Of a stretch of DNA of 47,076 nucleotides, positions 851-45,703 are shown piece by piece (position 1 is the first letter of the stretch; each line of letters begins with the position of its first letter). The stretch is from the NCBI GenBank assembly GCA_021768625.1, contig JAETUM010000019.1, positions 1 through 47,076 on the forward strand. Direction: 5' to 3'. The position numbers were made by a program, and so were the translations under genes. This DNA comes from Candidatus Stoquefichus sp. (GTDB taxonomy: Bacteria; Bacillota_I; Bacilli_A; Erysipelotrichales; Coprobacillaceae). The notes beneath the pieces were generated by a model. That model made no database searches. It saw only the letters and a list, made by a program, of their open reading frames with translations, and had not been told where the DNA came from.

Positions 851-1573
851 ATGGTTATGTATACTGAAATAAAGGATTATATCTTAGAATGTATAAAGAA
901 AAAGGAATATTATGCAGGATATAAACTTCCTCCAGAAAGAGAGTTTACAGAAAAATTTTCAGCATCACGTATGACAGTTCGTAGAGCAGTTGACGAACTT
1001 ATTCAAGAAGGGATTTTAATCAAAAAGAAAGGAAAAGGAATAACTGGTACATATGTTTCTGAGCCTAAAAAGACACGTAGTCTTCGCCGTATCTCTATAT
1101 CAACTGACAAGGAGCTTATCCATGAGTATGGACAAATAAGAGTTGAAATATTAGAGAAGAAAATTATTAAAAATCATTCAGTTACAAATAAGTTATTAGG
1201 ATTACTTCCTCATGAAGAAATCTACCAAGTGAAAAGAGTACAATATGGATGGGATATACCTATAGTTTATGAAAATATTTTCTTTCCTTTAAAATATTTT
1301 CCGCATATTCAAGAAGCAGACTTTAATCAATCACTAACAACAATTACACCTTTATATTTAATAGATGGATTACAACAAGGTAATAATGAAGTAGAAATAG
1401 AGTGTATCATAGCTACACCAAGATTAATGAAGTTATTATCTGTAACAAGAGATACACCAATTTTACAAATGAATATTATAGTAAGAGATATAAATGGAAT
1501 TCCTCTTTATTGTGGAAAAGATAGTTATGATGGAAATAGTTTTAAATACTCATCTCATGCAGAAATAGAATAA
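851..1573 (+). CDS. GntR-family (HutC/UTRA) transcriptional regulator
   Basis: A 240-residue repressor. Residues about 3-70 form the GntR winged helix, with the typical LPPEREFTEKFSASRMTVRRA pattern of this family split as LPPEREFTEKF then SASRMTVRRAVDEL. Residues about 85-235 look like the UTRA effector domain (EIYQVKRVQYGWDIPIVYEN, later ILQMNIIVRDINGIPLY), which binds a small effector. The ribosome binding site GGGAGGTGG (834-842) supports ATG 851; ATG 857 is an alternative. A -10 hexamer TATAAT lies at 816-821. Immediately downstream are a terminator and two GTCTAGAC operators in front of the corrinoid methyltransferase operon, so this regulator very probably represses that operon and releases it on binding the substrate or a product. 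The effector is unknown. Confidence 0.88.
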   Translation: MVMYTEIKDYILECIKKKEYYAGYKLPPEREFTEKFSASRMTVRRAVDELIQEGILIKKKGKGITGTYVSEPKKTRSLRRISISTDKELIHEYGQIRVEILEKKIIKNHSVTNKLLGLLPHEEIYQVKRVQYGWDIPIVYENIFFPLKYFPHIQEADFNQSLTTITPLYLIDGLQQGNNEVEIECIIATPRLMKLLSVTRDTPILQMNIIVRDINGIPLYCGKDSYDGNSFKYSSHAEIE

Positions 1574-1594
1574 GTCTTATGACTTATTTTTTTT
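1569..1594 (+). terminator. Terminator overlapping the GntR stop codon
   Basis: AATAAGTC (1569-1576), loop TTAT, GACTTATT (1581-1588), then a T run. The stop codon TAA (1571-1573) lies in the left arm. Confidence 0.75.
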
Positions 1595-1600
1595 ATGTTT

Positions 1601-1640
1601 ATTTGTCTAGACTTTTATTTATATTTGTCTAGACAAATAT
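1601..1640. promoter_or_regulatory. Tandem GntR-type operators (GTCTAGAC x2)
   Basis: Two copies of ATTTGTCTAGAC occur. The second is part of a perfect 20-base palindrome, ATATTTGTCTAGACAAATAT (1621-1640). The first (1601-1612) keeps the GTCTAGAC core (1605-1612) but has a degenerate right flank. The core centres (1608.5 and 1630.5) are 22 bases apart, about two helical turns, so two dimers could bind one face. The core matches the known NagR/DasR-type GntR operator (GGTCTAGACC). The -35 of the downstream promoter lies inside the second palindrome, which implies repression by steric block. Confidence 0.8.
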
Positions 1641-1658
1641 AAGATATAATAGTATAAT
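1630..1658 (+). promoter_or_regulatory. Promoter of the corrinoid methyltransferase operon
   Basis: TAGACA (1630-1635, one mismatch to consensus), a 17-base spacer and consensus TATAAT (1653-1658). The -35 is formed by the right half of the operator palindrome. A second TATAAT at 1645-1650 has no good -35. Confidence 0.65.
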
Positions 1659-1676
1659 AATTGTGAGGTGAGAATA

Positions 1677-2666
1677 ATGAACATGCAAGAGTGGTTAAAT
1701 GATTTAAGGCAACAGAAAAGAACCATACCGATTTTAAGTTTTCCAGCTGTACAATTGTTAGATTGTAGTTTAAGTGACTTCTTAAACGATAGCTCATTGC
1801 AAGCAGAAGGAATGAAAATTGTAACAGAAAGATGTCATACAGGAGTAGGAATAGGAATGATGGATCTATCAATTGAAGCAGAATGCTTTGGAGCTGACAT
1901 AAAGTTTGATGGTATTGATATTCCTACAGTAAAAGGAGCATTAATTGAAGATAGTGCAGAATTTTTAGAAGTTCCAAAAATACAAAAAAGAGCGAAAATT
2001 TATTTGGAAGGAATAAGAAAAGCAAAAGAATTGATGCCACAAACACCTATTTTGCCAGGAATGATAGGACCCTTTTCTTTGGCAGGAAGGTTATTAGATG
2101 TAAGTGAGGCTATGATATTGTGTTATGATGACCCTGATTTAGTACATGATGTTTTACAAAAGGCAACAGAATTTTTAATTCAGTATGGAAATGCTTTTAA
2201 AGAAGCAGGTGCTAGTGGAATTATTATGGCAGAGCCTTTAGCTGGAATTTTATCTCCAACATTGGTTCATGAGTTTTCTAGTGAATATGTTAAGAAGATC
2301 GTTCAAGAATTACAGAGTGATGATTTTATTGTTATTTATCATAATTGTGGAAATAATGTTTTAAAAATGGTGGATTCTATTTTATCAACAGGATGTTCTG
2401 CTTATCATTTTGGGAATGCTATTCACATGAAAGAAATGCTTGAAAAAATGCCTAATGATGCCATTGTCATGGGAAATATAGATCCTGTAGGTATTTTAAA
2501 AGATGGGAATATTGAAAGTGTTGAAAAAGAAACAAAACAGTTATTAGAAGAATGTGGAGAATATGACAATTTTATTTTGTCATCAGGATGTGATATTCCT
2601 TATACTTCACCATGGGAGAATTTAGATTGTTTTATAAAAACTGGAAATGATTATTATGAAGAATAA
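1677..2666 (+). CDS. UroD-fold zinc methyltransferase (MtaA/MtbA/CmuA type)
   Basis: A 329-residue TIM-barrel protein of the uroporphyrinogen decarboxylase family. It belongs with the methylcobamide:thiol methyltransferases rather than heme synthesis: it keeps their zinc ligands His222-x-Cys224 (in YHNCGNN) and Cys305 (in SSGCDIP). In MtaA/MtbA these hold Zn that activates the thiol of coenzyme M. The acceptor in this bacterium is unknown; homocysteine or another thiol would fit the zinc site. A GTG at 1668 is in frame, but GTGAGGTG (1663-1670) is the ribosome binding site, so ATG 1677 is chosen. It is the first gene of a five-gene operon and overlaps the next by 11 bases. No other tetrapyrrole gene is near. 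Confidence 0.82.
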   Translation: MNMQEWLNDLRQQKRTIPILSFPAVQLLDCSLSDFLNDSSLQAEGMKIVTERCHTGVGIGMMDLSIEAECFGADIKFDGIDIPTVKGALIEDSAEFLEVPKIQKRAKIYLEGIRKAKELMPQTPILPGMIGPFSLAGRLLDVSEAMILCYDDPDLVHDVLQKATEFLIQYGNAFKEAGASGIIMAEPLAGILSPTLVHEFSSEYVKKIVQELQSDDFIVIYHNCGNNVLKMVDSILSTGCSAYHFGNAIHMKEMLEKMPNDAIVMGNIDPVGILKDGNIESVEKETKQLLEECGEYDNFILSSGCDIPYTSPWENLDCFIKTGNDYYEE

Positions 2667-4068
2667 AACAATTCTACAGTATCTACAAGAGAATCATATC
2701 ATTATTGATGCATTATGTAATGGACAAAAAAAGTGTGGGAAATGTAAAGCTAAAGTTTTGAATAGAAATATTAATCTAACAGAACAAGAAAAGCAATTAT
2801 TAACAACAAAAGAAGTACAGGAAGGAATATGTTTAGCATGTTTTCATTCCTATCATAGTGATGATCAAATTGTTGTAATGAATCAAAAGATGAGGATTAC
2901 AGATGATATTCAAGAAACTTTAACAAGTCATCATCAAGGAATAGGTGTCATTATTGATATAGGTACAACAACAATTGTTATGAAATGGATAGAAAGATGT
3001 AGAGGAAAGTGCATAGAATCTGTATCTTTCATTAATCCACAAGTAAGTTACGGTGGAGATGTTATTAGTAGAATTGAGTATCAAAATCAAAACCAAACAA
3101 GTTATTTACATGATATTTTGGTAGAAAGTATAGAAAATCAACTTATTGAAAAAAATAAAGAAATTAATCAAATCATTGTATGTGGTAATACAACAATGAT
3201 ACACTTTCTTCTTAATGAAGATGTGTCTTCGCTAGGAGTAGCACCATTTCATGTTCCACAAAAAGATATGCAAAGAATAAATAGTTATGATATTTTTAAA
3301 AGATATTCATATCAATGTGAAATGATTACCTTTCCACATATTTCAGCATTTGTAGGAGGCGATATAGTTTCTGGAATCTATGCTAACGATATTGATCAAT
3401 TGGATTATCCAGTTTTAATGGTGGATTTAGGAACAAATGGAGAAATAGTTGTAGGAAATAAAGACTCTTTACTTGTTACTTCTACAGCAGCTGGTCCTGC
3501 ATTTGAAGGTGTTGGGATGAGCTGTGGGGGTGGAAGTGTTTCTGGTGCTATTGAAAAGGTTAAGCTATGTCCATTAGAAATAGAAACAATCAACCATCAA
3601 AAAGCAACTTGTATATGTGGAAGTGGATATATTTCATTATTAAAAGAATTGGTAGAAAAAAAACTTATATCTCCAATGGGAAAACTTATAGATAAAAAAG
3701 ATTTTTATTTAACAGATCATATATTCATTAATCAAAGTGATATTTCTCATTTTCAATTATCCAAGGCAGCCATACAAACAGGAGTTCATATTCTACTAGA
3801 AAATAGTAAAGTTGACACTATTTATATTGCTGGTGGCTTTGGAAGTCACTTAGATGTTAATGACTTAAAAGTTATTCAAGTTATACCTGAAGATATAAAA
3901 TATGCTCATAATATAGGGAATAGTGCTATTAAAGGATGTTATAAGTTATTAATGAGTCAAGATTTTGAAAGAGTCAATGCTATTGTTGATAAAGCTAAAA
4001 GTATAAATCTTGCAAATTATGAAGACTTTGAAGATATCTTAGTAGAGAGTTTATATTTTTATGATTAA
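2656..4068 (+). CDS. Reductive activator of corrinoid enzymes: [2Fe-2S] + ASKHA (DUF4445-type)
   Basis: A 470-residue protein. Residues 1-80 form a short ferredoxin-like domain with Cys21-x5-Cys27-x2-Cys30 and a later cysteine (Cys62, in ICLACF), the plant-type [2Fe-2S] arrangement. From about residue 95 follows an ASKHA actin/hexokinase-fold ATPase with the phosphate-binding GVIIDIGTTT, then VDLGTNGEI and AGPAFEG. This is the architecture of RACE proteins (RACo, AcsV-like, O-demethylase activators), which use ATP to reduce inactive cob(II)amide to cob(I)amide on the partner corrinoid protein. The partner is encoded two genes downstream. ATG 2647 is in frame, but ATG 2656 gives the usual start; both lie inside the preceding gene, indicating translational coupling. 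Confidence 0.85.
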   Translation: MKNKTILQYLQENHIIIDALCNGQKKCGKCKAKVLNRNINLTEQEKQLLTTKEVQEGICLACFHSYHSDDQIVVMNQKMRITDDIQETLTSHHQGIGVIIDIGTTTIVMKWIERCRGKCIESVSFINPQVSYGGDVISRIEYQNQNQTSYLHDILVESIENQLIEKNKEINQIIVCGNTTMIHFLLNEDVSSLGVAPFHVPQKDMQRINSYDIFKRYSYQCEMITFPHISAFVGGDIVSGIYANDIDQLDYPVLMVDLGTNGEIVVGNKDSLLVTSTAAGPAFEGVGMSCGGGSVSGAIEKVKLCPLEIETINHQKATCICGSGYISLLKELVEKKLISPMGKLIDKKDFYLTDHIFINQSDISHFQLSKAAIQTGVHILLENSKVDTIYIAGGFGSHLDVNDLKVIQVIPEDIKYAHNIGNSAIKGCYKLLMSQDFERVNAIVDKAKSINLANYEDFEDILVESLYFYD

Positions 4069-4666
4069 AATTATTTCTTGTGAAGTCTTTAAACCTTATA
4101 TTGAATTATTAAATATGAATTTAGATATTACTTATTTAGATATAGAAGGTCATAATTATCCTAATAGATTGGCAAAACAAATACAAAAGCAAATTGATGA
4201 ATGTCAACATTATGAAAAGATTATCCTATTATATGGATTATGTGGAAATGCTTTATTACATATTAAGGCACGTAATATTCCTGTATATGTCATAAGAGTT
4301 CATGATTGTTTAAGCGTATTACTTGGTAGTACAGAGAGGTTTTATGAATTGTTTCATGAAAGATTATCGTGTGGATGGAGCTGTTATTCTTTAGAAGGTA
4401 AAGATATTTTATTTGATGATTTTGATGAAGAAGAACAAATATATCTTCAAACGATATTAAATCCACCAAAAGAAGTTTATATTTCATTCTCAATGGAGAA
4501 AGAAAGACAATATGAAATAAAGTATAAAGAAATTATTAAGGGTGACTTATCTTTTTTAAAGGATATTATCCTTTTAAAATCAAAAGAGTTATTAGAAATT
4601 AATAGCAATGATCAAATAAGATTTGATGAAAGAACAATTTTAACAAAGGAGAAAAAGAATGGATAA
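4061..4666 (+). CDS. DUF1638 protein of the corrinoid operon
   Basis: A 201-residue soluble protein, recognised by the DUF1638 pattern: LLYGLCGNALLHIKARNIPVY followed by RVHDCLSVLLGSTERF, then a cysteine-bearing GWSCYSLEG segment. The segments LLYGLCGN and RVHDCLSVLLGS contain conserved Cys and His residues that could bind a metal or cofactor. From memory, DUF1638 genes recur beside methylamine-type and other corrinoid methyltransferase genes in methanogens and acetogens; no biochemical role is established that I know of. It overlaps both neighbours by 8 bases, so it is made in step with the activator and the corrinoid protein. A structural, cofactor-loading or substrate-handling role is guesswork. 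Confidence 0.75.
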   Translation: MIKIISCEVFKPYIELLNMNLDITYLDIEGHNYPNRLAKQIQKQIDECQHYEKIILLYGLCGNALLHIKARNIPVYVIRVHDCLSVLLGSTERFYELFHERLSCGWSCYSLEGKDILFDDFDEEEQIYLQTILNPPKEVYISFSMEKERQYEIKYKEIIKGDLSFLKDIILLKSKELLEINSNDQIRFDERTILTKEKKNG

Positions 4667-5297
4667 AGTAGTAGAAATTAATGAAATGCTTCAAAAAGGA
4701 CGTGCAAAAGCAGTTGTGAAACTTGTTCAAGAAGCATTAGATATGGGAGTAGAAGCAGATTTTATTTTAAAAGAAGCGTTATTAAAAGGAATGAATGAAG
4801 TTGGCGTCTTATTTAAACAAGAAGAAATCTTTGTACCTGAAGTATTAGTCGCTGCAAGAGCAATGAATAAAGGCGTTGAGGTCTTAAAACCATATTTAAG
4901 TCAAAATAATGATCAAGTTCAAGGAAGTGTTGTTTTAGGAACAGTTAAAGGTGACTTACATGATATAGGTAAAAATCTTGTGAAAATCATGATGGAAGGG
5001 AAAGGAATAGTTGTTTATGATTTAGGTACAGACGTTCCTGCTGAAAAGTTTATAGAAGAAGCTATTGATAAAAAAGTTGATGTTATTTGTTGTTCAGCAT
5101 TACTTACAACAACAATGCCAGAAATGAAAAAAGTTGTTGATTTGGTTAAAGAAAAGAATCTAGATATAAAGGTTATGATTGGTGGAGCTCCTGTAACTCA
5201 AGAATATTGTGATGAAATAGGTGCAGATTTTTATACTGATGATGCAACAAGTGCAAGTGAAGTTGCTGCTAAAATTATTATTGAGAAAGGAAATTAA
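4659..5297 (+). CDS. Corrinoid (B12-binding) methyl-carrier protein, MtbC/MttC type
   Basis: A 212-residue protein with the two-domain MtbC/MttC/MtaC layout: a helical cap (residues about 1-85) and a Rossmann B12-binding domain (about 88-205). The cobalt-ligand motif is D99-x-H101-x2-G104 (in GDLHDIGKN), with downstream SALLTTTMPEM and IGGAPVT that line the nucleotide tail. It carries the methyl group on cobalt between two methyltransferases in the cytoplasm. The length is normal for the family. The start overlaps the DUF1638 stop and has the Shine-Dalgarno sequence AAAGGAG. It is the centre of this operon: one UroD-like enzyme should methylate it and the other demethylate it, while the ASKHA activator repairs oxidised cobalt. 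Confidence 0.92.
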   Translation: MDKVVEINEMLQKGRAKAVVKLVQEALDMGVEADFILKEALLKGMNEVGVLFKQEEIFVPEVLVAARAMNKGVEVLKPYLSQNNDQVQGSVVLGTVKGDLHDIGKNLVKIMMEGKGIVVYDLGTDVPAEKFIEEAIDKKVDVICCSALLTTTMPEMKKVVDLVKEKNLDIKVMIGGAPVTQEYCDEIGADFYTDDATSASEVAAKIIIEKGN

Positions 5298-5300
5298 TAT

Positions 5301-6383
5301 ATGTTAAGTAAAAAGAATGAACAATTGGTTAATGATTATGAAAAATGGTGGAATCATGAGCTAGATAGACCTATTATTCAAGTAACATTATCTACTCATA
5401 AAGAATGTGAATATTCTAGAGGAGATTTATTAGAAATGGTATATGATCAAAATGTGAGCCCTTTAGATGTTGTTAAAGCATATGAGAAAACATATGCTAC
5501 ACAAATATATTTGGGTGATGCTTTTCCTCAATTTTATATGCGTTCGACAGGAATATTAGGAGCTTATTTGGGACAAGGATGGAAAATTGATAATAAACAT
5601 GGAACAATATGGTTTCAAGAAACTGGCCAAGAATTAGAGGATATTCATTTAAAGTTAGATAAGAATTTTTGGCTATATCAAAGATCGATTGATATTTTAA
5701 AAGAATTTTCTTCTTATTTTAAAGATAAAATAGCATTAGGTATTCCTAATCTAGGGGGAATGATGGATATTGTAGAGTCTATGAGAGGAGCAAATAATTC
5801 TTTAATTGATTTATATGATGATCCAGATGAAGTTACAAGAGTAAATGATGAGATTTTTGAAGCATATAAAGAGGCATATCATGATACAATAAATGTTATT
5901 ACTGAAGGGCATGTTATGGGGTATACAGGTTGGATTACTTTGTTAAGCCAAAAGCCATACTTTATTTCCCAATGTGATTTTTGTTGTATGATAGGTCAAG
6001 CTCAATTTGATGAATTCATTAAAGATACATTAAAGAAAGAAGCGGATATGATAGAAAGATCATTTTATCATTTAGATGGACCAGGAGCTGTTCGTCATTT
6101 AGATACAATTTTAGATTGCGGTTTTGACGGTATTCAATGGATTCAAGGTGCAGGGGCCGAAAGACTAGACTCTGGGAAATGGGATGAAATTTATAAAAAA
6201 GTAAGAGCCAAAAATAAACTATTACAAGTTTTTATTTATGGTAAAGAGGAGTTAAATTGTATAGATTATATTGTTGATGTTCTAGGTGGAGATGCATCAG
6301 GATTAGCATTTATTTGTACAGGTACAGAAGAAGATCAAGAAGCATTTATTGAATATCTTGATAAATATCATGTCCCACATTAA
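5301..6383 (+). CDS. Second UroD/MetE-superfamily enzyme, candidate substrate:corrinoid methyltransferase
   Basis: A 360-residue protein beginning LSKKNEQLVNDYEKWWNHEL. It looks like a divergent UroD-fold barrel: a conserved His257-x-Asp259-Gly260 element (YHLDGPGAVRHLD), a strand ending DGIQWIQGAGA, and FIYGKEEL near the C-terminus. It lacks the His-x-Cys...Cys zinc set of the first enzyme, so it is unlikely to bind a thiol the same way. By elimination it is the candidate methyltransferase I that strips a methyl group from the growth substrate. Only 3 bases separate it from the corrinoid gene, and a terminator follows. There is no MttB-type, MtaB-type or MeTr-type partner in the operon, so the substrate cannot be guessed from sequence. 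Confidence 0.68.
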   Translation: MLSKKNEQLVNDYEKWWNHELDRPIIQVTLSTHKECEYSRGDLLEMVYDQNVSPLDVVKAYEKTYATQIYLGDAFPQFYMRSTGILGAYLGQGWKIDNKHGTIWFQETGQELEDIHLKLDKNFWLYQRSIDILKEFSSYFKDKIALGIPNLGGMMDIVESMRGANNSLIDLYDDPDEVTRVNDEIFEAYKEAYHDTINVITEGHVMGYTGWITLLSQKPYFISQCDFCCMIGQAQFDEFIKDTLKKEADMIERSFYHLDGPGAVRHLDTILDCGFDGIQWIQGAGAERLDSGKWDEIYKKVRAKNKLLQVFIYGKEELNCIDYIVDVLGGDASGLAFICTGTEEDQEAFIEYLDKYHVPH

Positions 6384-6389
6384 TATATT

Positions 6390-6428
6390 AAAGTTGTTTA
6401 TTTTATAAGGATAAACAACTTTTTTCTT
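6390..6428 (+). terminator. Terminator of the corrinoid operon
   Basis: AAGTTGTTTA (6391-6400) pairs with TAAACAACTT (6412-6421), followed by a T-rich tail. Confidence 0.8.
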
Positions 6429-7241: not shown

Positions 7242-7318
<77 letters not shown>

Positions 7319-7333
7319 TTAATTTCTGTATAT

Positions 7334-7410
<77 letters not shown>

Positions 7411-7428
7411 TATATATTTTATTGATTT

Positions 7429-7504
7429 GGGGTTTTAGCTCAGCTGGGAGAGCGCCTGCCTTGCACGCAGGAGGTCAGCGGTTCGATCCCGCTAAGCTCC
7501 ACCA
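7429..7504 (+). tRNA. tRNA-Ala (TGC anticodon)
   Basis: A 76-base cloverleaf with acceptor GGGGTTT pairing to AAGCTCC, including the G3-U70 identity pair of tRNA-Ala. The anticodon stem is CCTGC/GCAGG and TGC lies at 7462-7464. The T-loop is TTCGATC and CCA is encoded. Ile-Ala pairs usually sit in rRNA operons; here no rRNA is adjacent. Confidence 0.97.
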
Positions 7505-8978: not shown

Positions 8979-9998
8979 ATGGCAAAAGCTGTTCAAAAAG
9001 AAAATTATGTAGTCAAAACATTAAATGGTATGGCTTATGGATTTTTTTCTAGTTTAATTATAGGAACGATATTAAAGCAAATAGGAATGGCTATACATAT
9101 AAACGATTTGGTTGTATGGGGACAAATCGCATCTTATTTGATGGGACCTGCAATTGGTGTAGGTATTGCATATGTTCTAGAAGCTAAAGGGTTGAATTTA
9201 ATTAGTGCAGTTATTGCTGGAACAATAGGAGCTGGAACTTTTTCTTTGAGTAATGGTAATGTCAGTGTGGCTGTTGGAAATCCTATTTCTGCTTATTTAG
9301 CAGTTCTATTAGCTGTAGAAGCAACAAGATTAGTGCAAGATAAAACACCTTTAGATATTTTAATTGTTCCATTTGTTTCTGTTTTATGTGCAGGATTAAT
9401 AACAAAGTTTATTGGACCATATATTACACAGATTATTGTTTGGATTGGTAATTTAATTAATCAAGGAGTAAAAATGCAGCCAATTTTTATGGGAATCGTT
9501 GTTGCTGTTTTAATGGGTATGGCATTAACTGCGCCTATTTCATCTGCTGCTATTGGTATCATGTTAGGTCTTGATGGTTTAGCTGCTGGAGCTGCTCTTG
9601 CAGGTTGTTGCGCACAAATGGTAGGATTGGCTATTATGTCGATGGACGATAATGATATAGGTGATGTCATTGCTATCGGTATAGGAACAAGTATGTTACA
9701 ATTTAAGAATATTGTCAAAAGGCCTATTATTTGGATACCACCTATTGTAGCAAGCATAGTATCAGGAGTAATTTCTGCTGCTATTTTAGGAATGAAATGT
9801 ACTGCTGTTGGTTCTGGAATGGGGACAGCAGGGTTAGTTGGTTTATTAGAGTCTATTCAAGTGATGGGGCAAGCTTATTGGTTACCACTTATTTTGGTTG
9901 ATGTTTTACTACCAATGGCTATTTGTTGGAGTATGTACAAAGCATTTAGAAAATTAAATTATATAAAAAGTGGAGATATGAAATTAACACGTTTATAA
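8979..9998 (+). CDS. Orphan PTS-type IIC membrane protein (PTS_EIIC_2 family)
   Basis: A 339-residue membrane protein with about 9-10 hydrophobic segments, rich in Gly and Ala (for example SYLMGPAIGVGIAYVLEAKG and VLMGMALTAPISSAAIGIML). These features fit the PTS_EIIC_2 family, which is related to the sugar-translocating IIC domain but is usually found alone. No IIA or IIB domain is fused or encoded nearby, so it would need a partner elsewhere or act as a non-PTS transporter. The ribosome binding site GCGAGGGAGG precedes ATG 8979. It is transcribed alone between a promoter at 8929 and a terminator whose left arm overlaps the stop codon. Confidence 0.72.
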   Translation: MAKAVQKENYVVKTLNGMAYGFFSSLIIGTILKQIGMAIHINDLVVWGQIASYLMGPAIGVGIAYVLEAKGLNLISAVIAGTIGAGTFSLSNGNVSVAVGNPISAYLAVLLAVEATRLVQDKTPLDILIVPFVSVLCAGLITKFIGPYITQIIVWIGNLINQGVKMQPIFMGIVVAVLMGMALTAPISSAAIGIMLGLDGLAAGAALAGCCAQMVGLAIMSMDDNDIGDVIAIGIGTSMLQFKNIVKRPIIWIPPIVASIVSGVISAAILGMKCTAVGSGMGTAGLVGLLESIQVMGQAYWLPLILVDVLLPMAICWSMYKAFRKLNYIKSGDMKLTRL

Positions 9999-10025
9999 AA
10001 TCATCTTGAAGGATGATTTTTTCTT
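9997..10025 (+). terminator. Terminator of the PTS IIC gene
   Basis: AAAATCATC (9997-10005) pairs with GATGATTTT (10012-10020), followed by a T-rich tail; it overlaps the stop codon. Confidence 0.8.
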
Positions 10026-10069
10026 TTATTTGATAAAGAAAAAAGATATAATGATACATGGTGATAAAA

Positions 10070-11530
10070 ATGCAATTAAAACAATTATTGAATGAATTAG
10101 ATTATCAATTATTACAAGGAAATATGGATCAAGAAGTGAGTCAAATTGATTATGATTCACGTAAAGTTAAAAAAAACAGTCTTTTTATTTGTATTTCAGG
10201 TTCACAAGTAGATGGGCATCGTTTTATAGATGATGTTATTGAAAAAGGGGCAAAAGTTATTGTTGTAGAAAAAGTCGTTGAATATAAAGAGGGAATCACA
10301 TATATTCAAGTTACTGATTCAAGATATGCTTTAGCTTTATTATCATGTGCTTTCTTTGATCATCCAAGCCGTAAAATGACAGTGATAGGGTTAACTGGAA
10401 CAAAAGGGAAAACAACAACATCATATATGGTGCAATCTATTTTGGAAAAGGCTCATAAAAAGGTAGGTATTATTGGAACAATTGGGTCAATCATTAATGG
10501 AGAATTTAAAGAAACGAAAAATACAACACCAGAATCATTTGAACTTCAAAAATTAATGAGTGAAATGGTTGAAAGTGGTTGTGAATATTGTGTTATGGAA
10601 GTCTCTTCTCAAGGACTTATGTTGAATCGTGTTGCTGGAATTGATTTTGATTATGGAGTGTTTACTAATCTTTCACCAGATCATATTGGTCCACATGAAC
10701 ATACATCTTTCGAACATTATATGGAATGTAAGAAAAAGTTATTCCAAATGTGTAAGGTAGGTCTTTTTAATAAAGATGACACACATTATGATGATATGAT
10801 TGATGGAGCAACATGTCAAATACAAACATATTCAATAACAAAGAAAAGTGATTTACAAGCTTCACATATTCAATTATCAAAAGGTCAAGGAACATTAGGA
10901 GTTTCTTTTGAAACACAAGGATTGTTAAATGTTTTTTTTGAAACAGATATACCAGGACAATTTAGTGTATATAATTCATTAGTTGCAATTATGATTTGTA
11001 AATTATTAAATATTGAGACTCCTTATATTCAAAAGGCATTAAAACAAGTAAGGGTGAAAGGAAGAGTTGAGATTGTCCCATATAGTGATGATTTTACAGT
11101 ACTTATAGATTATGCCCACAATGCTTTTTCATTTGAAAGTATATTAGAAACGATTTCTCAATATCATCCTCAACGTATCATTTGTGTTTATGGTGCAGGA
11201 GGAAAAAGAGCAAAATCTAGAAGATATGAAGTTGGAAAAGTTGTTGCAAAAATGAATGCTATCTCTATTTTAACTGCCGATAATCCTAGAGGAGAAGGTG
11301 TTAAAGATATTTGTGATGATATTGTTGAGGGCGTTAAGGAATATAACGGTGAATATGTTATTATCGAAGATAGAAAAGAAGCCATTCAATATGCTTTAGA
11401 CTTTGCGAAAAAAGGTGATGTCATTCTATGTTTAGGTAAGGGACATGAAGATTATATGATTATTGATGATAAACATATTGTTCATTTTAGTGAAAGAGAA
11501 ATTATAGAAGCTTATAAGAAGAATAAATAG
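10070..11530 (+). CDS. murE: UDP-N-acetylmuramyl-tripeptide synthetase (MurE)
   Basis: A 486-residue Mur ligase that adds the third stem-peptide amino acid to UDP-MurNAc-L-Ala-D-Glu in the cytoplasm. The N-terminal UDP-binding domain has DSRKVKKNSLF. The ATP-binding domain has GLTGTKGKTTT and the lysine-carbamate region NTTPESFEL...MEVSSQGL. The C-terminal domain has GAGGKR and GKGHEDY. The specificity loop is Asp404-Asn-Pro-Arg407 (ADNPRGEG); DNPR is the meso-diaminopimelate signature, whereas Lys-adding enzymes usually lack the Arg. ATG 10058 is in frame, but GGTGAT (10060-10065) acts as the ribosome binding site, so ATG 10070 is preferred. A -10 TATAAT lies at 10047-10052. No murF or mraY is near, so it stands outside the usual dcw cluster. 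Confidence 0.88.
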   Translation: MQLKQLLNELDYQLLQGNMDQEVSQIDYDSRKVKKNSLFICISGSQVDGHRFIDDVIEKGAKVIVVEKVVEYKEGITYIQVTDSRYALALLSCAFFDHPSRKMTVIGLTGTKGKTTTSYMVQSILEKAHKKVGIIGTIGSIINGEFKETKNTTPESFELQKLMSEMVESGCEYCVMEVSSQGLMLNRVAGIDFDYGVFTNLSPDHIGPHEHTSFEHYMECKKKLFQMCKVGLFNKDDTHYDDMIDGATCQIQTYSITKKSDLQASHIQLSKGQGTLGVSFETQGLLNVFFETDIPGQFSVYNSLVAIMICKLLNIETPYIQKALKQVRVKGRVEIVPYSDDFTVLIDYAHNAFSFESILETISQYHPQRIICVYGAGGKRAKSRRYEVGKVVAKMNAISILTADNPRGEGVKDICDDIVEGVKEYNGEYVIIEDRKEAIQYALDFAKKGDVILCLGKGHEDYMIIDDKHIVHFSEREIIEAYKKNK

Positions 11531-21828: not shown

Positions 21829-21930
21829 TATGGTGGTTATACAACTGGCGGAAGTGGAATTAACCACATGGAGTATAATGTACAAGAGTCGACCGTCTGG
21901 GCAAATGTCTGGACGAGTAGGCTCTTTTTT
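21829..21930 (+). ncRNA. ZTP (pfl) riboswitch with terminator
   Basis: The leader contains the hallmarks of the pfl/ZTP aptamer: a first stem GTGGTTA...TAACCAC (about 21832-21867) with an internal ACTGGCGGAAGTGGAA, then the highly conserved CCGTCTGGGCA (21893-21903). AAGAGTC (21884-21890) pairs with GGCTCTT (20-base window 21920-21926) and is followed by TTTTTT, an intrinsic terminator that overlaps the aptamer's 3' domain. ZTP (5-aminoimidazole-4-carboxamide riboside triphosphate) builds up when 10-formyl-THF is scarce. Binding should block the terminator and turn on formate-THF ligase and the purine genes downstream, exactly the gene set expected. Confidence 0.93.
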
Positions 21931-22036
21931 GTGTTTTGTTAAAATACATAGATATATCATTGAGAAAAGTGAAGATTTATGATATAAAATAAGTGTTGAA
22001 GTCCTTATAAAAATATAAAAAAGAAAGGGTGGCATC

Positions 22037-23707
22037 ATGTTAACAGATGTAGAAATCGCACAAAGTGCAAAAATGAAACCAATTAAAGAAATCGCTGAGA
22101 AAGTAGGATTAGATGAAGATGATTTAGAACTTTATGGAAAATATAAAGCAAAGATTTCATTAGAAGCTATTCAAAAATTAAAAAATAATAAAGATGGGAA
22201 ATTGGTATTAGTAACTGCTATTAACCCTACACCTGCTGGTGAAGGAAAAACAACAACAATGATAGGTTTATCTCAAGCATTAAATAAGTTAGGGAAAAAA
22301 TCAATTGTTGCTATGCGTGAACCGAGTTTAGGTCCTTGCTTTGGAATTAAAGGTGGAGCAGCTGGTGGTGGATATGCTCAAGTTGTGCCAATGGAAGACA
22401 TTAATTTACATTTTACTGGAGATATTCATGCAATTACAACTGCTAATAACTTAATTGCAGCAATGTTAGATAACTCTATTCAACAAGGAAATCCTTTAGA
22501 TATTGATACAAGACAAATCGTATGGAAAAGAGTTGTAGACTTAAATGATAGAGCTTTAAGACATACTATCTGTGGTTTAGGTGGAAAAGTCAATGGAGTT
22601 CCTAGAGAAGATGGATTTGATATTACAGTAGCAAGTGAGGTTATGGCTATTCTTTGTTTAGCAACTTCTCTTGATGATTTAAAGAAAAGAGCAGGACGTA
22701 TGATCGTTGCTTATAATCATGCTGGAGAACCTGTTACTGTTGATGATATTCAAGCAACAGGAGCTGTGACATTATTATTAAAAGATGCTATTAAACCAAA
22801 CTTGGTACAAACATTAGATCATACACCTGTATTTGTTCATGGTGGACCATTTGCTAATATTGCTCATGGATGTAACTCTGTTATGGCAACACAACTTGCT
22901 ATGAAGTTAGGAGATTATGCTATTACTGAAGCAGGATTTGGTGCAGATTTAGGGGCCGAAAAGTTCCTAGATATTAAATGTCGTCAAGCTGGACTTTCTC
23001 CAGATGCTGTTGTTATTGTAGCAACTGTTCGTGCATTAAAGATGCATGGAGGTGTTGCTAAAAAAGATTTAGGTGTTGAAAACTTAGAAGCTTTAAGAAA
23101 AGGTATTGAAAATCTTGAAAAGCATATAGAAAATATTGCTAAATATCATTTACCAAGCGTTGTTGCTATTAATGCATTCCCAACTGATACAGAGGCTGAA
23201 TTACAATTATTAAATGAGATTTGTAAAAATAAAGGCGTAGATGTAGCAATCAGTAAAGTATGGGAAAAAGGTGCTGATGGTGGAATTGAATTAGCAGAAA
23301 AATTACTTGAAGTTTTAGAGACAAAAGAAGCTCATTTTGCTCCTATTTATGATTTAAAACTTCCAATTGCTGATAAAATCAGAACAATTGCTCAAGAAAT
23401 ATATGGTGCAGATGATGTCACTTTCACTAAGAAAGTGTTAAATAAGATGAAGAAGTATGAAGCACAAGGATTAGGAGAACTTCCTATCTGTGTAGCAAAA
23501 ACACAATATTCTTTATCTGATGATCAAACATTACTAGGAAGACCAACTGGTTTTAAAGTAACTATTAATGATTTGATTCCTAATACTGGAGCAGGATTCT
23601 TAGTTGCTATTAGTGGAGACATCATGCGTATGCCAGGGTTACCTAAGGTACCTGCTGCTGTCAATATGGATATTGATGAAAATGGAAAAATTGTAGGATT
23701 ATTCTAA
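22037..23707 (+). CDS. fhs: Formate--tetrahydrofolate ligase
   Basis: A 556-residue enzyme, the usual length, that makes 10-formyl-THF from formate, THF and ATP in the cytoplasm. Visible features are the P-loop-like [19 protein letters not shown] near residue 62, [31 protein letters not shown] and [16 protein letters not shown], all typical of Fhs. AAAGGGTGG precedes ATG 22037. It is the first gene after the ZTP riboswitch. Its product is the formyl donor for PurN and PurH, encoded downstream in the same cluster, and it could also feed formate from glycyl-radical metabolism into one-carbon units. Confidence 0.97.
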
Positions 23708-23727
23708 AAGAGACGTTTGTCTCTTTT
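23706..23727 (+). terminator. Hairpin between fhs and purE
   Basis: AAAAGAGAC (23706-23714), loop GTTT, GTCTCTTTT (23719-23727). It overlaps the fhs stop codon. The following run is only four T bases, so it is more likely an attenuating or RNA-stabilising hairpin than a full terminator. Confidence 0.5.
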
Positions 23728-23755
23728 GGTGTTTAAAAGAAAGGACGGGAAATAT

Positions 23756-24244
23756 ATGAAAGTTGCAATTATTATGGGGTCTACAAGTGATTTACCTAAA
23801 GTAGAACCAGCAATTGAAATTTTGAAAAGTTATGGTGTTGAAGTGAACGTAAGATGTCTTTCAGCCCATCGAGCACATTTAGGGTTAAGTGCTTTTATTA
23901 AAGAAACAGAAACTGATGGAACAGAAGTGATTATTACAGCTGCTGGGATGGCTGCTGCACTTCCTGGGGTTGTTGCTTCTCAAACTGTATTACCAGTTAT
24001 TGGAGTTCCTATTAGTGGGGCAACATTAGATGGTATGGACGCATTGTTATCAATTGTACAAATGCCTTCTGGTATACCAGTAGCAACTGTAGCTATTAAT
24101 GGAAGTAAAAATGCTGCTTACTTAGCATTACAAATCATGGCAATTAAACATGAAAGTATTAAAACTCAATTATTAGATTATCGAAAAGAAATGGAAGTTA
24201 GCGCAATGAAGGCTAATGACGAAGTTATAGAAAAATATAAATAA
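23756..24244 (+). CDS. purE: PurE, 5-(carboxyamino)imidazole ribonucleotide mutase / AIR carboxylase
   Basis: A 162-residue PurE-fold protein with the nucleotide-binding IIMGSTSDLPKVEPA, the active-site SAHRAH and AAGMAAALPGVVA, and GVPISGATLDGMDALLSIVQMPSGIPVAT. It makes CAIR for purine synthesis. There is no purK in the cluster, so it may act as a direct AIR carboxylase or purK may lie elsewhere. The SAHRAH loop differs from the SAHRTP that I remember for class I enzymes. The frame is open from 23717, but AAAGGACGGG supports ATG 23756. It lies between fhs and purC in the same orientation. Confidence 0.92.
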   Translation: MKVAIIMGSTSDLPKVEPAIEILKSYGVEVNVRCLSAHRAHLGLSAFIKETETDGTEVIITAAGMAAALPGVVASQTVLPVIGVPISGATLDGMDALLSIVQMPSGIPVATVAINGSKNAAYLALQIMAIKHESIKTQLLDYRKEMEVSAMKANDEVIEKYK

Positions 24245-24259
24245 GAGAGGAAAAGGAAA

Positions 24260-24964
24260 ATGGCAAAATTATTGTACGAAGGAAAAGCAAAACAAGTTTA
24301 TGAAACTGATAAGGCAGATGAATATTTAATTCATTATAAAGATGATGCAACTGCTGGTAATGGAGTAAAGCATGATCAATTTGAAGGAAAAGGTGTTTTA
24401 AATAATACCATTTCTTGTATTATCTTTGATATGTTAGAAGAAGCTGGTATTGAAACACATATGATTGAAAAAATTAATGATCGTGATATTAGAGTTAAAA
24501 AGGTAGAAATCTTCCCATTGGAAGTTATTATTAGAAATATTACAACTGGATCATTCTGTAAAAGATTAGGAGCAAAAGAAGGTATTGTTTTAGATGAACC
24601 TATCTTTGAAATGAGTTATAAAAATGATGATTATGGTGATCCATTAATTAATGATGATCATGCTGTTGCATTAAAATTAGCAACTCGTGAAGAATTAGCT
24701 TATATTAGAGAAACAACTTTAAAGATCAATGAATTATTAAAAGCATTTTTCTTAAAATTAAATTTAAAATTAGTAGATTTTAAGATTGAATTTGGAAAAA
24801 CAGAAGATGGAAAAATTTTATTGGCTGATGAAATTTCACCTGATTCATGCCGTTTATGGGATGTAGATACAAATCAAAAATATGATAAAGATGTCTTTAG
24901 ACAAGATATTGGAGATTTAATTGAAACATATAAAGCAGTACTTGCAAGAATGGAAAATAAATAA
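24260..24964 (+). CDS. purC: SAICAR synthetase
   Basis: A 234-residue PurC, normal length, which joins aspartate to CAIR using ATP. Motifs: [14 protein letters not shown] at the N-terminus, [18 protein letters not shown] around residues 88-105, and the C-terminal [21 protein letters not shown] with the [10 protein letters not shown] active-site stretch. GAGAGGAAAAGG precedes ATG 24260. It is separated from purE by 15 bases and from purM by 11, so it is part of the purine operon. Confidence 0.96.
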
Positions 24965-24975
24965 GGAGAATAAAG

Positions 24976-26001
24976 ATGGATTATAAAAAAGCTGGTGTAG
25001 ATATTGAAGCTGGATATAAATCAGTTGAATTAATGAAAAAGCATGTTAAAGAAACAATGAGACCAGAAGTATTAGGTGGTCTTGGAGGATTTGCTGGGGC
25101 ATTTGATTTAAGTGGAATTAAAAATATGGATGAACCAGTGCTTTTATCTGGAACTGATGGTTGTGGAACAAAAGTCAAACTTGCTTTTGTGATGGATAAA
25201 CATGATACAATTGGAATTGATGCAGTTGCAATGTGTGTCAATGATATTGCATGTTCTGGAGGAGAACCACTTTTCTTTTTAGATTATATTGCATGTGGAA
25301 AGAATTATCCTGAAAAAATTGCAACAATTGTGAGTGGGGTTGCTGAAGGATGTAAACAGTCAGAATGTGCTTTAGTTGGTGGAGAAACAGCTGAGCATCC
25401 AGGACTTATGCCTGAAGATGATTATGATCTTGCTGGATTTGCAGTAGGAGTTGTCGATAAAAAAGATATTATTAATGGTGAAGATATTAAACCTGGTGAT
25501 GTTTTGGTAGGAATTGCTTCAAGTGGAGTTCATAGTAATGGATTCTCTCTTGTTAGAAAAGTCTTTGAAATGACAAAAGAGTCATTAGATACATATTATG
25601 ATGAATTAGGGAAAACATTAGGTGAAGCTTTAATTGAGCCTACAAGAATTTATGTTAAAGCATTAAAAAATGTAAAAAATGCTGGTGTAAAAATAAAAGG
25701 ATGCAGTCATATTACTGGTGGTGGATTCTTTGAAAATGTACCAAGAATGTTACCTGATGGAGTAAAAGCTATTATTCAAAAAGATAGTTATAAAGTTCCT
25801 GCAATCTTTGATTTAATTGCGAAAAATGGAAATATTGCTGAAAATATGATGTATAATACATTTAATATGGGATTAGGTATGGTTATTGCTTTAGATTCTC
25901 AAGATGTTGATAAAGCTATGGCAGCAATTGAGGAAGCTGGAGATACTTGTTATGTTGTAGGAAATATCGAAGCAGGAGATAAGGGAGTCGAATTATGCTA
26001 A
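24976..26001 (+). CDS. purM: Phosphoribosylformylglycinamidine cyclo-ligase (AIR synthetase)
   Basis: A 341-residue PurM, normal length, that closes FGAM to AIR with ATP. The N-terminus [20 protein letters not shown] and the motif [15 protein letters not shown] are typical, followed by [25 protein letters not shown] split over the glycine-rich ATP-binding region, GETAEHPG and [20 protein letters not shown] precedes the start. Its end overlaps purN by 7 bases. Confidence 0.97.
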
Positions 26002-26585
26002 AAGTTGCTGTTTTTGTATCTGGAGGAGGAACTGATTTACAATCTATTATTGATGCATGCCAAAATCATGAAATTAATGCAGAGATTAAATTAGTTGTTT
26101 CTTCAAGAAAAAAAGCATATGGCTTAGAGCGTGCAAGACTTGCTGGCATTAAAGCTGAATATATAAGAGATGATGAATTATTAATTCAACGCTTACAAGA
26201 GGAAGAAATTGAATTAATTGTTTTAGCAGGATATCTAGCAATTGTGAGCGATCGATTGATTGAATTATATCAAAATAGAATTATCAATATTCATCCTTCT
26301 TTAATTCCATCTTTTTGTGGACCTGGTTTCTATGGATTACATGTTCATGAAGCAGCATTAAAAAGAGGTGTTAAAGTAAGTGGAGCAACTGTTCATTTTG
26401 TTTCTCCAGTTGTTGATGGCGGACCTATTATTTTACAAGAGGCTGTTGATATTTCTGATTTAAAGACTGCTGAAGATATACAAGCAAGAATTTTAGAGAT
26501 TGAACATCGTATTTTACCAAAAGCAGTTGGTTTGTTTGCTGATAAAAAAATAAAAATTGAAAATGAAAGGGTTGAAATAATATGA
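25995..26585 (+). CDS. purN: Phosphoribosylglycinamide formyltransferase
   Basis: A 196-residue folate-dependent GAR transformylase that uses 10-formyl-THF, the product of the nearby fhs. The catalytic triad context is present: INIHPSLIP (Asn and His) and [16 protein letters not shown] (Asp). The phosphate loop is [12 protein letters not shown], where most PurN proteins have SGxGSNLQ, and the loop after [22 protein letters not shown] carries an unusual insertion relative to the common F-x-G form; both appear to be variants, not damage. It starts inside the purM end and ends inside the purH start (ATGA overlap). Confidence 0.94.
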
Positions 26586-28105
26586 GAAGAGCATTAGTTT
26601 CTGTAACAAATAAAGATGGTGTTGTTGATTTTTGTAATGGTTTAGTGAAATTAGGTTTTGAAATTGTTTCTACTGGTGGAACATTAAATAAATTAAAAGA
26701 AGCTGGTATTCATGCTATTGCTATTGATGATGTGACTGGTTTTCCAGAAATTTTAGATGGAAGAGTGAAAACTTTACATCCAAAGGTTCATGGTGGTTTA
26801 TTGTATAGAAGAGATGTTGAAGAACATGTCAAAACTGTTGAAGAAATGGGTATTCAACCTATTGATTTGGTTTGTGTTAATCTTTATGAATTTGAAAAAG
26901 CATTAAAAGCGGGTAAACCAATGGCAGATATGATTGAGAATATTGATATTGGTGGGCCTTCAATGATTAGAAGTGCTGCTAAAAACTTTAAAGATGTCTT
27001 AATTGTGACTGATCCAAGTGATTACAATAGTGTATTAGAAGCTATTGAAAATAAAACAGATGATTATAATTTCAGATTAAATCTTGCATATAAAGCATTT
27101 AGTACAACAGGAGCATATGATGCTATGATTTCTCGTTATTTTGCTGATGTTGTAGGTGATGATTTCCCAGATACTTTAAATATTTCTTTAAAGAAAGTAG
27201 AACATTTGCGATATGGTGAAAACTCTCAACAAGCTGCTAATAAATATGAAGATGCATATGTTCAACAATCATTATTAGATTATGAACAATTACATGGAAA
27301 AGAAATTTCATTTAATAATGTTAATGATTTATATGGTGCTGTTGCAGTTGTTAGAGAATTTAAAGATCAAATTGTTACTGCTGCTATTAAACATTCTACA
27401 CCTTGTGGAGTGGCTATTGGAAGCACTGGTTATGAATCATATATGAAAGCTTATGAAGCTGATCCTCAATCTATTTTTGGGGGAATCGTTGCTGTAAACT
27501 ATAAAGTGGATAAAGCAACTGCTGAGGAAATGCATAAGATCTTCTTGGAAATTGTTGCTGCACCAGATTATGATGATGATGCTTTAGAAGTTTTAAAGAA
27601 AAAGAAAAACTTACGTATCTTAAAACTAAAGAATTTAGATGCTAGAGATGCAAAATATGATATTAAATATCTTGAAGGAAAAGTTTTGGTTCAAGAATTA
27701 AATACAAAAATGATTGATGAAATGAAAGTTGTTACAAATGCTCAACCTACTCAAGCTCAATTAGATGATATGGAATTTGGTATGAAAGTTGTCAAATATG
27801 TCAAATCAAATGCTATTTGTATTGTTAAAAATGGTGTTACTTTAGCTATTGGTGGTGGACAAACATCACGTGTATGGGCATTAGAAAATGCTATTCATAA
27901 TAACCCTGATAAAGATTTCAAAGATGCTGTTTTAGCTTCAGATGCATTCTTCCCATTTAATGATTGTGCACAAGTTGCTATTGATGCAGGAATTAGCGCA
28001 ATTGTACAACCAGGTGGAAGTATTAGAGATCAAGATTCAATAGATTTATGTAATGAACATGATGTACCTATGGTCTTTAGTGGGTATAGACATTTTAGAC
28101 ATTAG
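26582..28105 (+). CDS. purH: Bifunctional AICAR formyltransferase / IMP cyclohydrolase
   Basis: A 507-residue bifunctional enzyme for the last two steps to IMP. The N-terminal IMP cyclohydrolase (MGS-like) domain shows SVTNKDGVVDFCNGL, STGGTLNKLKEAG and GRVKTLHPKVHGGLLYRRD in parts. The C-terminal formyltransferase domain has VEHLRYGENSQQAA, IKHSTPCGVA (catalytic Lys-His; the common Asn is Thr here), AIGGGQTSRV and SDAFFPFNDC. It uses 10-formyl-THF. It starts by a 4-base overlap with purN and is followed 10 bases later by purD. Confidence 0.97.
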   Translation: MRRALVSVTNKDGVVDFCNGLVKLGFEIVSTGGTLNKLKEAGIHAIAIDDVTGFPEILDGRVKTLHPKVHGGLLYRRDVEEHVKTVEEMGIQPIDLVCVNLYEFEKALKAGKPMADMIENIDIGGPSMIRSAAKNFKDVLIVTDPSDYNSVLEAIENKTDDYNFRLNLAYKAFSTTGAYDAMISRYFADVVGDDFPDTLNISLKKVEHLRYGENSQQAANKYEDAYVQQSLLDYEQLHGKEISFNNVNDLYGAVAVVREFKDQIVTAAIKHSTPCGVAIGSTGYESYMKAYEADPQSIFGGIVAVNYKVDKATAEEMHKIFLEIVAAPDYDDDALEVLKKKKNLRILKLKNLDARDAKYDIKYLEGKVLVQELNTKMIDEMKVVTNAQPTQAQLDDMEFGMKVVKYVKSNAICIVKNGVTLAIGGGQTSRVWALENAIHNNPDKDFKDAVLASDAFFPFNDCAQVAIDAGISAIVQPGGSIRDQDSIDLCNEHDVPMVFSGYRHFRH

Positions 28106-28115
28106 GAGGATAAAA

Positions 28116-29369
28116 GTGAAAGTACTAGTTATTGGTAGTGGTGGTCGTGAACATGCGATTGCTTATGCATTAAATAAGAGTCCTAAAGTTGATGAAATTC
28201 ATGCTATTCCTGGAAACCCTGGAATAGCTGAATTTGGAACATGTCATTTAGGCAGTGTTGAAGATTTAGAAGGTATTTTAAAATTTGTAGAAGATAATCA
28301 TATTGATTTTACTGTTATTGGTCCAGAAGTTCCTTTATGTATGGGGTTAGCTGACTTATTGGAAGAACATGGACATAAGGTTTTTGGTCCTAGAAAATTT
28401 GCTGCAACTTTAGAAGGAAGTAAAGCTTTTTCTAAGGATTTTATGGCAAGACATCATATCCCTACAGCTGCTTATAAAGAAGTGAATTCATATCAAGAAG
28501 CTATTGATGCTTTAAAGAATTTTGATTATCCTGTTGTTGTGAAGGCTGATGGTTTAGCAGCAGGAAAAGGGGTTGTCATTTGTGAAGATCAACAAATGGC
28601 TAAAGATACTCTTAAAGAAATGATGATAGAAGGTAGCTTAGATGGAGCTGGAAGTAAGGTTGTTTTAGAAGAGTTCTTAACTGGTTTTGAATGTTCATTG
28701 CTTTGCTTTACTGATGGAAAAACAATTGTTCCAATGGTTAGTGCAAAGGATCACAAACAAGTATATGATGGAAATAAGGGACCTAATACTGGAGGTATGG
28801 GAACTGTTTCACCAAATCCATTTATGCCTAGCGGTATGGATGAGGTCATGAAAAAAGATATTCTTGATCCATTTATGGCTGGTTTAAAAGCTGATGGTAT
28901 GGATTATAGAGGTGTTGTTTTCATTGGTTTGATGATTGAAAATAATAAAGCAAAAGTTCTTGAATTTAATGTGCGTTTTGGAGACCCTGAAACACAATCT
29001 ATCTTACTTCGTTTAGATAGTGATTTATTTGATATTATGTATGCTGTATCTACAAGTACATTAGATCAAGTAGAAGTAAAATGGAAAGATGAACATGTTG
29101 CATGTTTGGTTCTTGCAAGTGGTGGATATCCTGGAAGTTATGAAAAGGGTAAAGTCATTACTGGATTAAAGGATGTTGATGATGATATTGTTATTTTCCA
29201 TGCTGGAACTGCATTTAAGGATGATCAAGTTGTTACAAGTGGTGGCCGTGTATTAAATATATGTGCATTAGGTTCTTCATTAGAAGAAACAAGAGAAAAA
29301 GTTTATAAGGCTGCTGAGAAGATTGATTTTGATGGTAAATATTATCGAAAAGACATTGGTTTAATGTAA
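28116..29369 (+). CDS. purD: Phosphoribosylamine--glycine ligase (GAR synthetase)
   Basis: A 417-residue ATP-grasp enzyme that joins glycine to phosphoribosylamine. It starts VKVLVIGSGGREHAIAYAL; the ATP-grasp core shows FDYPVVVKADGLAAGKGVVIC, NTGGMGTVSPNP and FNVRFGDPETQ. A frame is open from 28053 inside purH, but AGGAGG (28104-28109) fits the GTG start at 28116, which begins the conserved N-terminus exactly. It lies 10 bases after purH and 11 before purL. Confidence 0.97.
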   Translation: MKVLVIGSGGREHAIAYALNKSPKVDEIHAIPGNPGIAEFGTCHLGSVEDLEGILKFVEDNHIDFTVIGPEVPLCMGLADLLEEHGHKVFGPRKFAATLEGSKAFSKDFMARHHIPTAAYKEVNSYQEAIDALKNFDYPVVVKADGLAAGKGVVICEDQQMAKDTLKEMMIEGSLDGAGSKVVLEEFLTGFECSLLCFTDGKTIVPMVSAKDHKQVYDGNKGPNTGGMGTVSPNPFMPSGMDEVMKKDILDPFMAGLKADGMDYRGVVFIGLMIENNKAKVLEFNVRFGDPETQSILLRLDSDLFDIMYAVSTSTLDQVEVKWKDEHVACLVLASGGYPGSYEKGKVITGLKDVDDDIVIFHAGTAFKDDQVVTSGGRVLNICALGSSLEETREKVYKAAEKIDFDGKYYRKDIGLM

Positions 29370-29380
29370 GAGGTGAAAAG

Positions 29381-33136: not shown

Positions 33137-33137
33137 A

Positions 33138-34623: not shown

Positions 34624-34657
34624 ATGCCATAATTATACAAAAGAAAGGATGATTCAA

Positions 34658-35419: not shown

Positions 35420-35434
35420 TATGATTTCTTTTTT
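35407..35434 (+). terminator. Terminator of the deoR-type gene
   Basis: AGAAATCAT (35407-35415), loop ATAAT, ATGATTTCT (35421-35429), then a T run. The stop codon lies inside it. Confidence 0.8.
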
Positions 35435-35523: not shown

Positions 35524-35535
35524 TGGAGAAGAAAA

Positions 35536-38794: not shown

Positions 38795-38809
38795 AAGGAG
38801 AAAAAGAAA

Positions 38810-45562: not shown

Positions 45563-45581
45563 ATTGATGTCATAAATTGAC

Positions 45582-45622: not shown

Positions 45623-45631
45623 ATAAAAAGG

Positions 45632-45655: not shown

Positions 45656-45703
45656 ATTTATATCTGGCTTCTAACTGTTTTTTAGAAGAAAGGAAAATTG
45701 AAT

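Follow-up and report, generated by a model that had tools for sequence, protein, structure and literature searches.

Several methyltransferase systems built around a corrinoid protein offer a comparison for the locus described here. Characterised donor enzymes of the UroD superfamily are MtvB, OdmB, VdmB, MtoB, CdmB and CmuA (PMC13222342). MtaA-like enzymes with a His-Cys-Cys zinc site have been described in about 100 mostly bacterial genera, where they occur in mlp gene clusters without folate enzymes (PMC10418091). We analysed a five-gene operon that encodes one MtaA-like enzyme and one divergent UroD-fold protein, here called UroD2, in a 47,076-nucleotide stretch (the window) of Candidatus Stoquefichus sp. 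(assembly GCA_021768625.1, contig JAETUM010000019.1, positions 1 to 47,076). The host genome is 2.92 Mb and 100% complete. The original prediction for this locus held that known systems pair the corrinoid carrier with MttB, MtaB or MeTr and that a thiol-type zinc enzyme is unusual in a bacterium without coenzyme M. Neither statement agrees with the two papers just cited.

Four groups of described systems come closest. Type 1 mlp gene clusters, which Kountz and Balskus described (PMC10418091), share with the operon an MtaA-like His-Cys-Cys enzyme, a corrinoid protein, a reductive activase of the RACE type, the lack of a methylfolate methyltransferase, their occurrence in anaerobic Firmicutes and a varying gene order. 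They differ in having two or three MtaA-like proteins, and SelD in most carriers, whereas the operon has one MtaA-like protein, the divergent UroD2 and a DUF1638 protein in a genome without SelD. The three-component O-demethylases Mtv, Odm, Vdm and Mto and the chloromethane system Cdm likewise combine a UroD-fold donor enzyme with a corrinoid protein and RACE, but their acceptor-side methyltransferase (MT2) depends on folate or methanopterin; here the MT2 is MtaA-like and the URO-D model does not recognise UroD2. In methanogens, the MtaABC and MtbA systems rely on an MtaA-type zinc enzyme by which the corrinoid-bound methyl group reaches a thiol, the kind of enzyme also proposed here. The present locus is bacterial and has no MtaB, and its zinc enzyme scores too low for the NCBIfam models of MtaA and MtbA. 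Finally, in the split methionine synthase and in a betaine demethylase with a RamA-like protein (PMC5764234, PMC12478193), DUF1638 and RACE also serve a methionine-linked corrinoid protein, but alongside pterin-binding, PF02574 and MttB-type subunits rather than an MtaA-like enzyme and UroD2. The novelty lies in how the parts are put together: a single MtaA-like enzyme, an unrecognised UroD2 family and DUF1638, conserved side by side in a few gut-type relatives within the Erysipelotrichales. No paper describing this combination, or testing the UroD2 family, was found among the open-licence literature.

Results

A conserved and commonly regulated five-gene operon

Positions 1677-6383 of the plus strand form one operon with a hairpin terminator on either side (Table 1). 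The gene order is MtaA-like enzyme, RACE-type activase, DUF1638 protein, corrinoid protein and UroD2; consecutive genes overlap by 20, 8 and 8 bases and the last two are separated by 3 bases. The exact operator 12-mer recurs closely upstream of the cluster, in a single copy per locus, in three related loci (L002, L003 and L004). Including a fourth relative, L033, where it carries one mismatch, the operator precedes the cluster in 5/5 loci with a visible start and is exact in four of them, which is strong evidence for one regulated unit. A homologue of the upstream GntR/UTRA protein, the putative repressor of the operon, lies beside or within the cluster in L002, L003 and L004; the regulator of L033 differs, being a double-GntR protein. 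Promoter-like sites are as frequent in the region as expected by chance, so the case for the promoter in Table 1 rests on its position and its overlap with the operator. No riboswitch control of the operon was found in the window cluster. The view that this is a self-contained corrinoid methyl-transfer module controlled as a unit is upheld, and its five genes lie in the predicted place and order, four of the proteins being confirmed by Pfam and the second UroD-type enzyme being recognised through its fold model.

All five genes and a GntR-type regulator occur together in the four related genomes. L002, L003 and L004 have a changed gene order, and all five of their proteins are 40-72% identical to the counterparts in the window; in L033 the order is that of the window. 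A further relative, L005, is a 3.2-kb fragment carrying the activase, the corrinoid protein, UroD2 and a PF02574 homocysteine methyltransferase whose gene overlaps that of UroD2 and whose zinc cysteines are intact. Along with the profile search and structure prediction given below, which returned no library family and a UroD fold, a neighbourhood analysis had been called for at the outset; in each of the six close loci, whatever the gene order, it placed UroD2 immediately behind the corrinoid gene. Among 43 genomes of the family, UroD2 is present in five and PF01208 in six, and all five UroD2 genomes carry an MtaA-like gene at the same locus (hypergeometric 6e-6, with shared ancestry ignored). 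One genome, G306, has an isolated URO-D-family protein without the cluster.

UroD2 is a predicted UroD/MtaA-type barrel

Neither UroD2 nor its 11 homologues gave a convincing match to any Pfam or NCBIfam family. Even with E values up to 1 allowed, UroD2 gave no hit to PF01208, and a search of PDB sequences with its profile returned noise only. Its AlphaFold (AF2) model, with a pLDDT of 91.2 and a pTM of 0.90, superposed on 6w2o (Z 21.2, rmsd 3.6, 313 aligned) and on 4ay7 (Z 21.1, rmsd 3.4, 304 aligned). Z scores were 20-21 against UroD and MtaA/MtbA structures and 12-13 against MetE. As modelled, therefore, UroD2 is a barrel of the UroD/MtaA type. Profile-profile comparison with the set of MtaA-like proteins (E 8.8e-6) paired H257 of UroD2 with H222 of the MtaA-like enzyme and D259 with C224. 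UroD2 is without the His-Cys-Cys set, an aspartate (D259) standing in place of a zinc cysteine. Since O-methyl enzymes of the UroD superfamily are reported to swap the zinc cysteine for a carboxylate or a non-ligand (PMC10418091), the H257-x-D259 pair fits such enzymes.

Further cysteines were considered as well. Those of QCDFCCM are invariant, but this peptide had served as a search pattern, so its invariance is biased and was not taken as proof of a zinc site. In the L014 homologue, found without the pattern, all three cysteines are gone and D226, H257 and D259 are kept. The same gene, seen at L027 (13695-15826), is accompanied by a divergent AraC-type regulator and lacks the QCDFCCM cysteines; no corrinoid gene lies in the 14 kb before it, and the contig ends just after. 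C339 is at most a possible counterpart of the third MtaA ligand, as it falls where the alignment is uncertain and is confined to the close group.

UroD2 is the best candidate for the donor enzyme of the operon. Of the claim that it is the substrate methyltransferase of a new or little-studied class, the likely substrate role and the little-studied family stand; a UroD-fold partner is in itself no new class (PMC13222342).

Close relatives of UroD2 occur in Thomasclavelia, Erysipelatoclostridium and uncultured Erysipelotrichaceae. Its spread is sporadic: in 392 sampled genomes of the phylum three gave matches, one being the host genome and one spurious. The spurious match, in G084 (L015), was rejected for its low score and internal stops. 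None was found in plasmid records. Distant homologues, 22-31% identical, include some in Armatimonadota clusters that also encode a corrinoid protein, MtaB, several URO-D proteins, PF02574, DUF1638 and RACE. Large Chthonomonas clusters (L007, 6625-17764; L009, 6764-16734) contain MtaB (tested in L007), a corrinoid protein, PF02574, several URO-D-fold proteins, DUF1638 and RACE.

The zinc enzyme resembles MtaA

The MtaA-like enzyme aligned over 238 positions with the methylcobalamin:coenzyme M methyltransferase of Methanosarcina mazei, 4ay7 (E 4e-19, 30.7% identity). H222, C224 and C305, the zinc site named in the original prediction, are in register with the zinc His/Cys/Cys of 4ay7. This numbering counts from the ATG at 1677; a GTG at 1668 would give 225 and 308. 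The protein resembles one that works as MtaA does, although its scores lie under the NCBIfam cut-offs for membership (MtaA, 110.5 of 400 bits; MtbA, 104.9 of 600 bits). Under a published rule that asks for more than 25% identity with a coenzyme M methyltransferase of established function (PMC10418091), it counts as an Mlp. It is the single PF01208 protein in the whole genome. A role of the UroD proteins in heme synthesis was rejected: this one PF01208 gene reaches 71.8 bits, where the hemE model requires 303.

The His-Cys-Cys site has been argued to mean S- or Se-methyl chemistry, and the acceptor of bacterial MtaA-like enzymes outside methanogens is so far a proposal only (PMC10418091). We infer that the zinc enzyme methylates a thiol instead of demethylating a thioether, a direction that sequence cannot tell.

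Other partners are absent from the genome

The absence of an MttB, MtaB or MeTr partner, claimed for the window, extended to the whole genome. No PF06253 (MttB), PF12176 (MtaB) or PF01717 (the MetE-type catalytic domain of the core methionine synthases MesA-D) was found in it. PF02574 and PF00809, the pterin-binding, MeTr-type domain, occur once each, both within a fused MetH of 782 residues on another contig, adjoined by MetF and a B12-activation-domain-like protein (weak PF02965 match). The genome is thus equipped for the usual folate-dependent synthesis of methionine. With no methylfolate methyltransferase outside MetH, it is unlikely that a dedicated MT2 passes methyl groups on to folate. 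The best match to SelD (26.7 bits against a cut-off of 125) is purM, and selenium recycling was rejected for a genome without SelD.

Activase, DUF1638 and corrinoid protein

The activase contains Fer2, Raco_middle and RACo_C_ter domains, has 3zyy as its closest solved chain and is the product of the genome's only PF14574 gene. The corrinoid carrier, closest to the solved chain 1y80, has a DLHDIG (DxHxxG) motif with the lower-ligand His101 and tops the five B12-binding matches in the genome, MetH being second. For these two proteins, as for the MtaA-like enzyme, the roles proposed here are those expected from knowledge of their families. DUF1638 probably helps in reactivating the corrinoid: in alphaproteobacteria, genetics tie DUF1638 and RACE-like proteins to corrinoid reactivation and to methionine synthesis (PMC5764234). 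The DUF1638 model reached a pLDDT of 72, and fold comparison gave no convincing match.

Genes and signals near the operon

Adjoining the L002 cluster are a cobalamin riboswitch and then DUF4430 and ECF-type genes, which would fit a role in cobalamin uptake; a DUF4430 gene stands at the matching place in L003 too. In L033 a D-cysteine desulfhydrase-family gene (9705-10682) follows UroD2 by 89 bases and has sub-cut-off scores with D-cysteate sulfo-lyase and coenzyme M synthesis XcbE models.

Elsewhere in the window, three tandem tRNA genes (7242-7501), the first two of which look like mutual copies, follow an amidase gene downstream of the operon. A ZMP/ZTP riboswitch stands ahead of a formate-tetrahydrofolate ligase gene and a run of purine biosynthesis genes (21831-34520). 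A PFL-like glycyl-radical enzyme, its activase and a transaldolase-like protein are encoded behind a DeoR-type regulator (34649-39490), and a PreQ1 riboswitch precedes the gene of a small membrane protein that probably transports a queuosine precursor (45578-46249).

Table 1. Features of the operon and its upstream region, in window coordinates.
Feature	Position	Strand	Evidence
GntR/HutC-type regulator with UTRA ligand-binding domain	851..1573	+	Pfam GntR 4.6e-15, UTRA 9.6e-16
Hairpin and T-run, gntR transcript end	1566..1600	+	RNA fold -9.3 kcal/mol, z -4.5
Operator region	1603..1636	no strand	partial copy TTGTCTAGACTT at 1603-1614; perfect palindrome TTGTCTAGACAA at 1625-1636
Promoter-like site TAGACA-17-TATAAT	1630..1658	+	11/12 consensus; overlaps operator
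MtaA-like zinc methyltransferase (URO-D family)	1677..2666	+	PF01208 E 6e-52; H222-x-C224, C305
RACE-type corrinoid reductive activase ([2Fe-2S], RACo middle, ASKHA)	2647..4068	+	PF14574 1e-54, PF17651 1e-39, PF00111 8e-6
DUF1638 protein	4061..4666	+	PF07796 8e-22
Corrinoid carrier, two-domain	4659..5297	+	PF02310 4e-28, PF02607 2e-19 (B12-binding, B12-binding_2)
UroD2, divergent UroD-fold protein, 360 residues; proposed donor-side methyltransferase	5301..6383	+	QCDFCCM 224-230, H257-x-D259
Hairpin and T-run, operon end	6387..6427	+	RNA fold -12 kcal/mol, z -5.5

Discussion

Gene content, the predicted fold of UroD2, the MtaA-like zinc motif, the conserved operator and linkage, and the absence of other partners are directly established by this analysis. 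The five genes very probably make up a complete corrinoid-dependent system for methyl transfer. Onto these results we place a model in which methyl groups would pass from a donor through UroD2, the corrinoid protein and the MtaA-like enzyme to a thiol, most likely homocysteine. As donor-side methyltransferase (MT1), UroD2 would bind a methylated compound, probably an O- or N-methyl one, and transfer the methyl group to the Co(I) of the corrinoid protein. Acting as MT2, the MtaA-like enzyme would then hand it on from methyl-Co(III) to a thiol held by zinc; with homocysteine, the most likely thiol, the product would be methionine. RACE, aided by DUF1638, would use ATP to re-reduce inactive Co(II) to Co(I). 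Bound to TTGTCTAGACAA, the GntR/UTRA protein would keep the operon repressed and be released by an inducer, which may be the substrate itself. Taken as a whole we favour this model tentatively, giving it somewhat less than an even chance. The placing of UroD2 on the donor side, the choice of homocysteine as acceptor and the direction of flow are inference. For homocysteine the PF02574 neighbours in L005 and in Armatimonadota give no more than moderate support.

Several points weigh against this model. The MtaA-like motif does not specify homocysteine, and other thiols or sulfide would fit equally. In L005, where the PF02574 gene is found, the MtaA-like gene may lie outside the 3.2-kb contig. 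The genome has a normal operon of MetF, activation-domain protein and MetH and no need for a further methionine route. Four UroD2 homologues (L006, L008, L011 and L014) have no corrinoid gene visible alongside in the available sequence, and the UroD2 family may not be exclusively corrinoid-linked. Finally, neither a transporter nor a substrate-linked enzyme accompanies the cluster from genome to genome.

The same proteins could run the other way, the MtaA-like enzyme demethylating a thioether (methionine, S-methylcysteine, a methylthioadenosine product or dimethyl sulfide) and UroD2 passing the methyl group of the carrier to another acceptor. S-methyl salvage has been proposed for bacterial MtaA-like enzymes (PMC10418091), and the desulfhydrase-family gene after the L033 cluster would be in keeping with it. 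However, the genome is capable of de novo methionine synthesis, the pairing of UroD2 with a homocysteine methyltransferase in L005 fits UroD2 as a source and not a sink, and UroD2 is without the His-Cys-Cys set. We consider this reversal unlikely.

Slightly less likely still is that the operon can be read as an mlp gene cluster. One Mlp by the identity rule, a corrinoid protein, RACE and no methylfolate enzyme nearby agree with the published description of these clusters. With one PF01208 protein in the genome, however, the rule of two Mlps (Mlp2 plus Mlp3) fails, no SelD scores over its cut-off, and UroD2 is without the site reported for Mlps and is not recognisable as one by sequence.

A chloromethane or methoxy-aromatic demethylase of the Cdm, Odm or Mto kind, its MT2 exchanged for an MtaA-like enzyme, seems improbable. 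The absence of a PF01208 match for UroD2 at E up to 1 speaks against it, as does the folate-type MT2 that those systems use and this one does not have. Such systems do have a UroD-fold MT1, a corrinoid protein and RACE (PMC13222342, PMC8630106), and some MT1 enzymes of that kind are without zinc (PMC13222342). Very improbable is a helper operon mainly for MetH, in which the single RACE would reactivate MetH and the other genes would be secondary: although the operon holds the genome's only PF14574 gene and RACE and DUF1638 serve methionine synthesis in alphaproteobacteria (PMC5764234), MetH has its own adjoining activation-domain-like gene (the weak PF02965 match) and a dedicated carrier with two methyltransferases would be left unexplained.

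Returning to the model of flow from a donor to a thiol, its furthest-reaching form is doubtful, if worth stating: UroD2 would found a new class of corrinoid donor methyltransferases, marked by H257-x-D259 and, in most members, QCDFCCM, which together with an MtaA-like enzyme would let gut bacteria of the Erysipelotrichales type scavenge exogenous methyl groups independently of folate, by way of homocysteine to methionine. A cluster with one MtaA-like enzyme is easier to resolve than those with two or three. If the model is true, five genes with a dedicated regulator and one activase form a minimal system that would allow direct tests of the substrate, of the acceptor and of what DUF1638 does. 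A donor-enzyme family invisible to Pfam and NCBIfam would be gained, and gut bacteria would be taking methyl groups from compounds of the diet or the host without folate.

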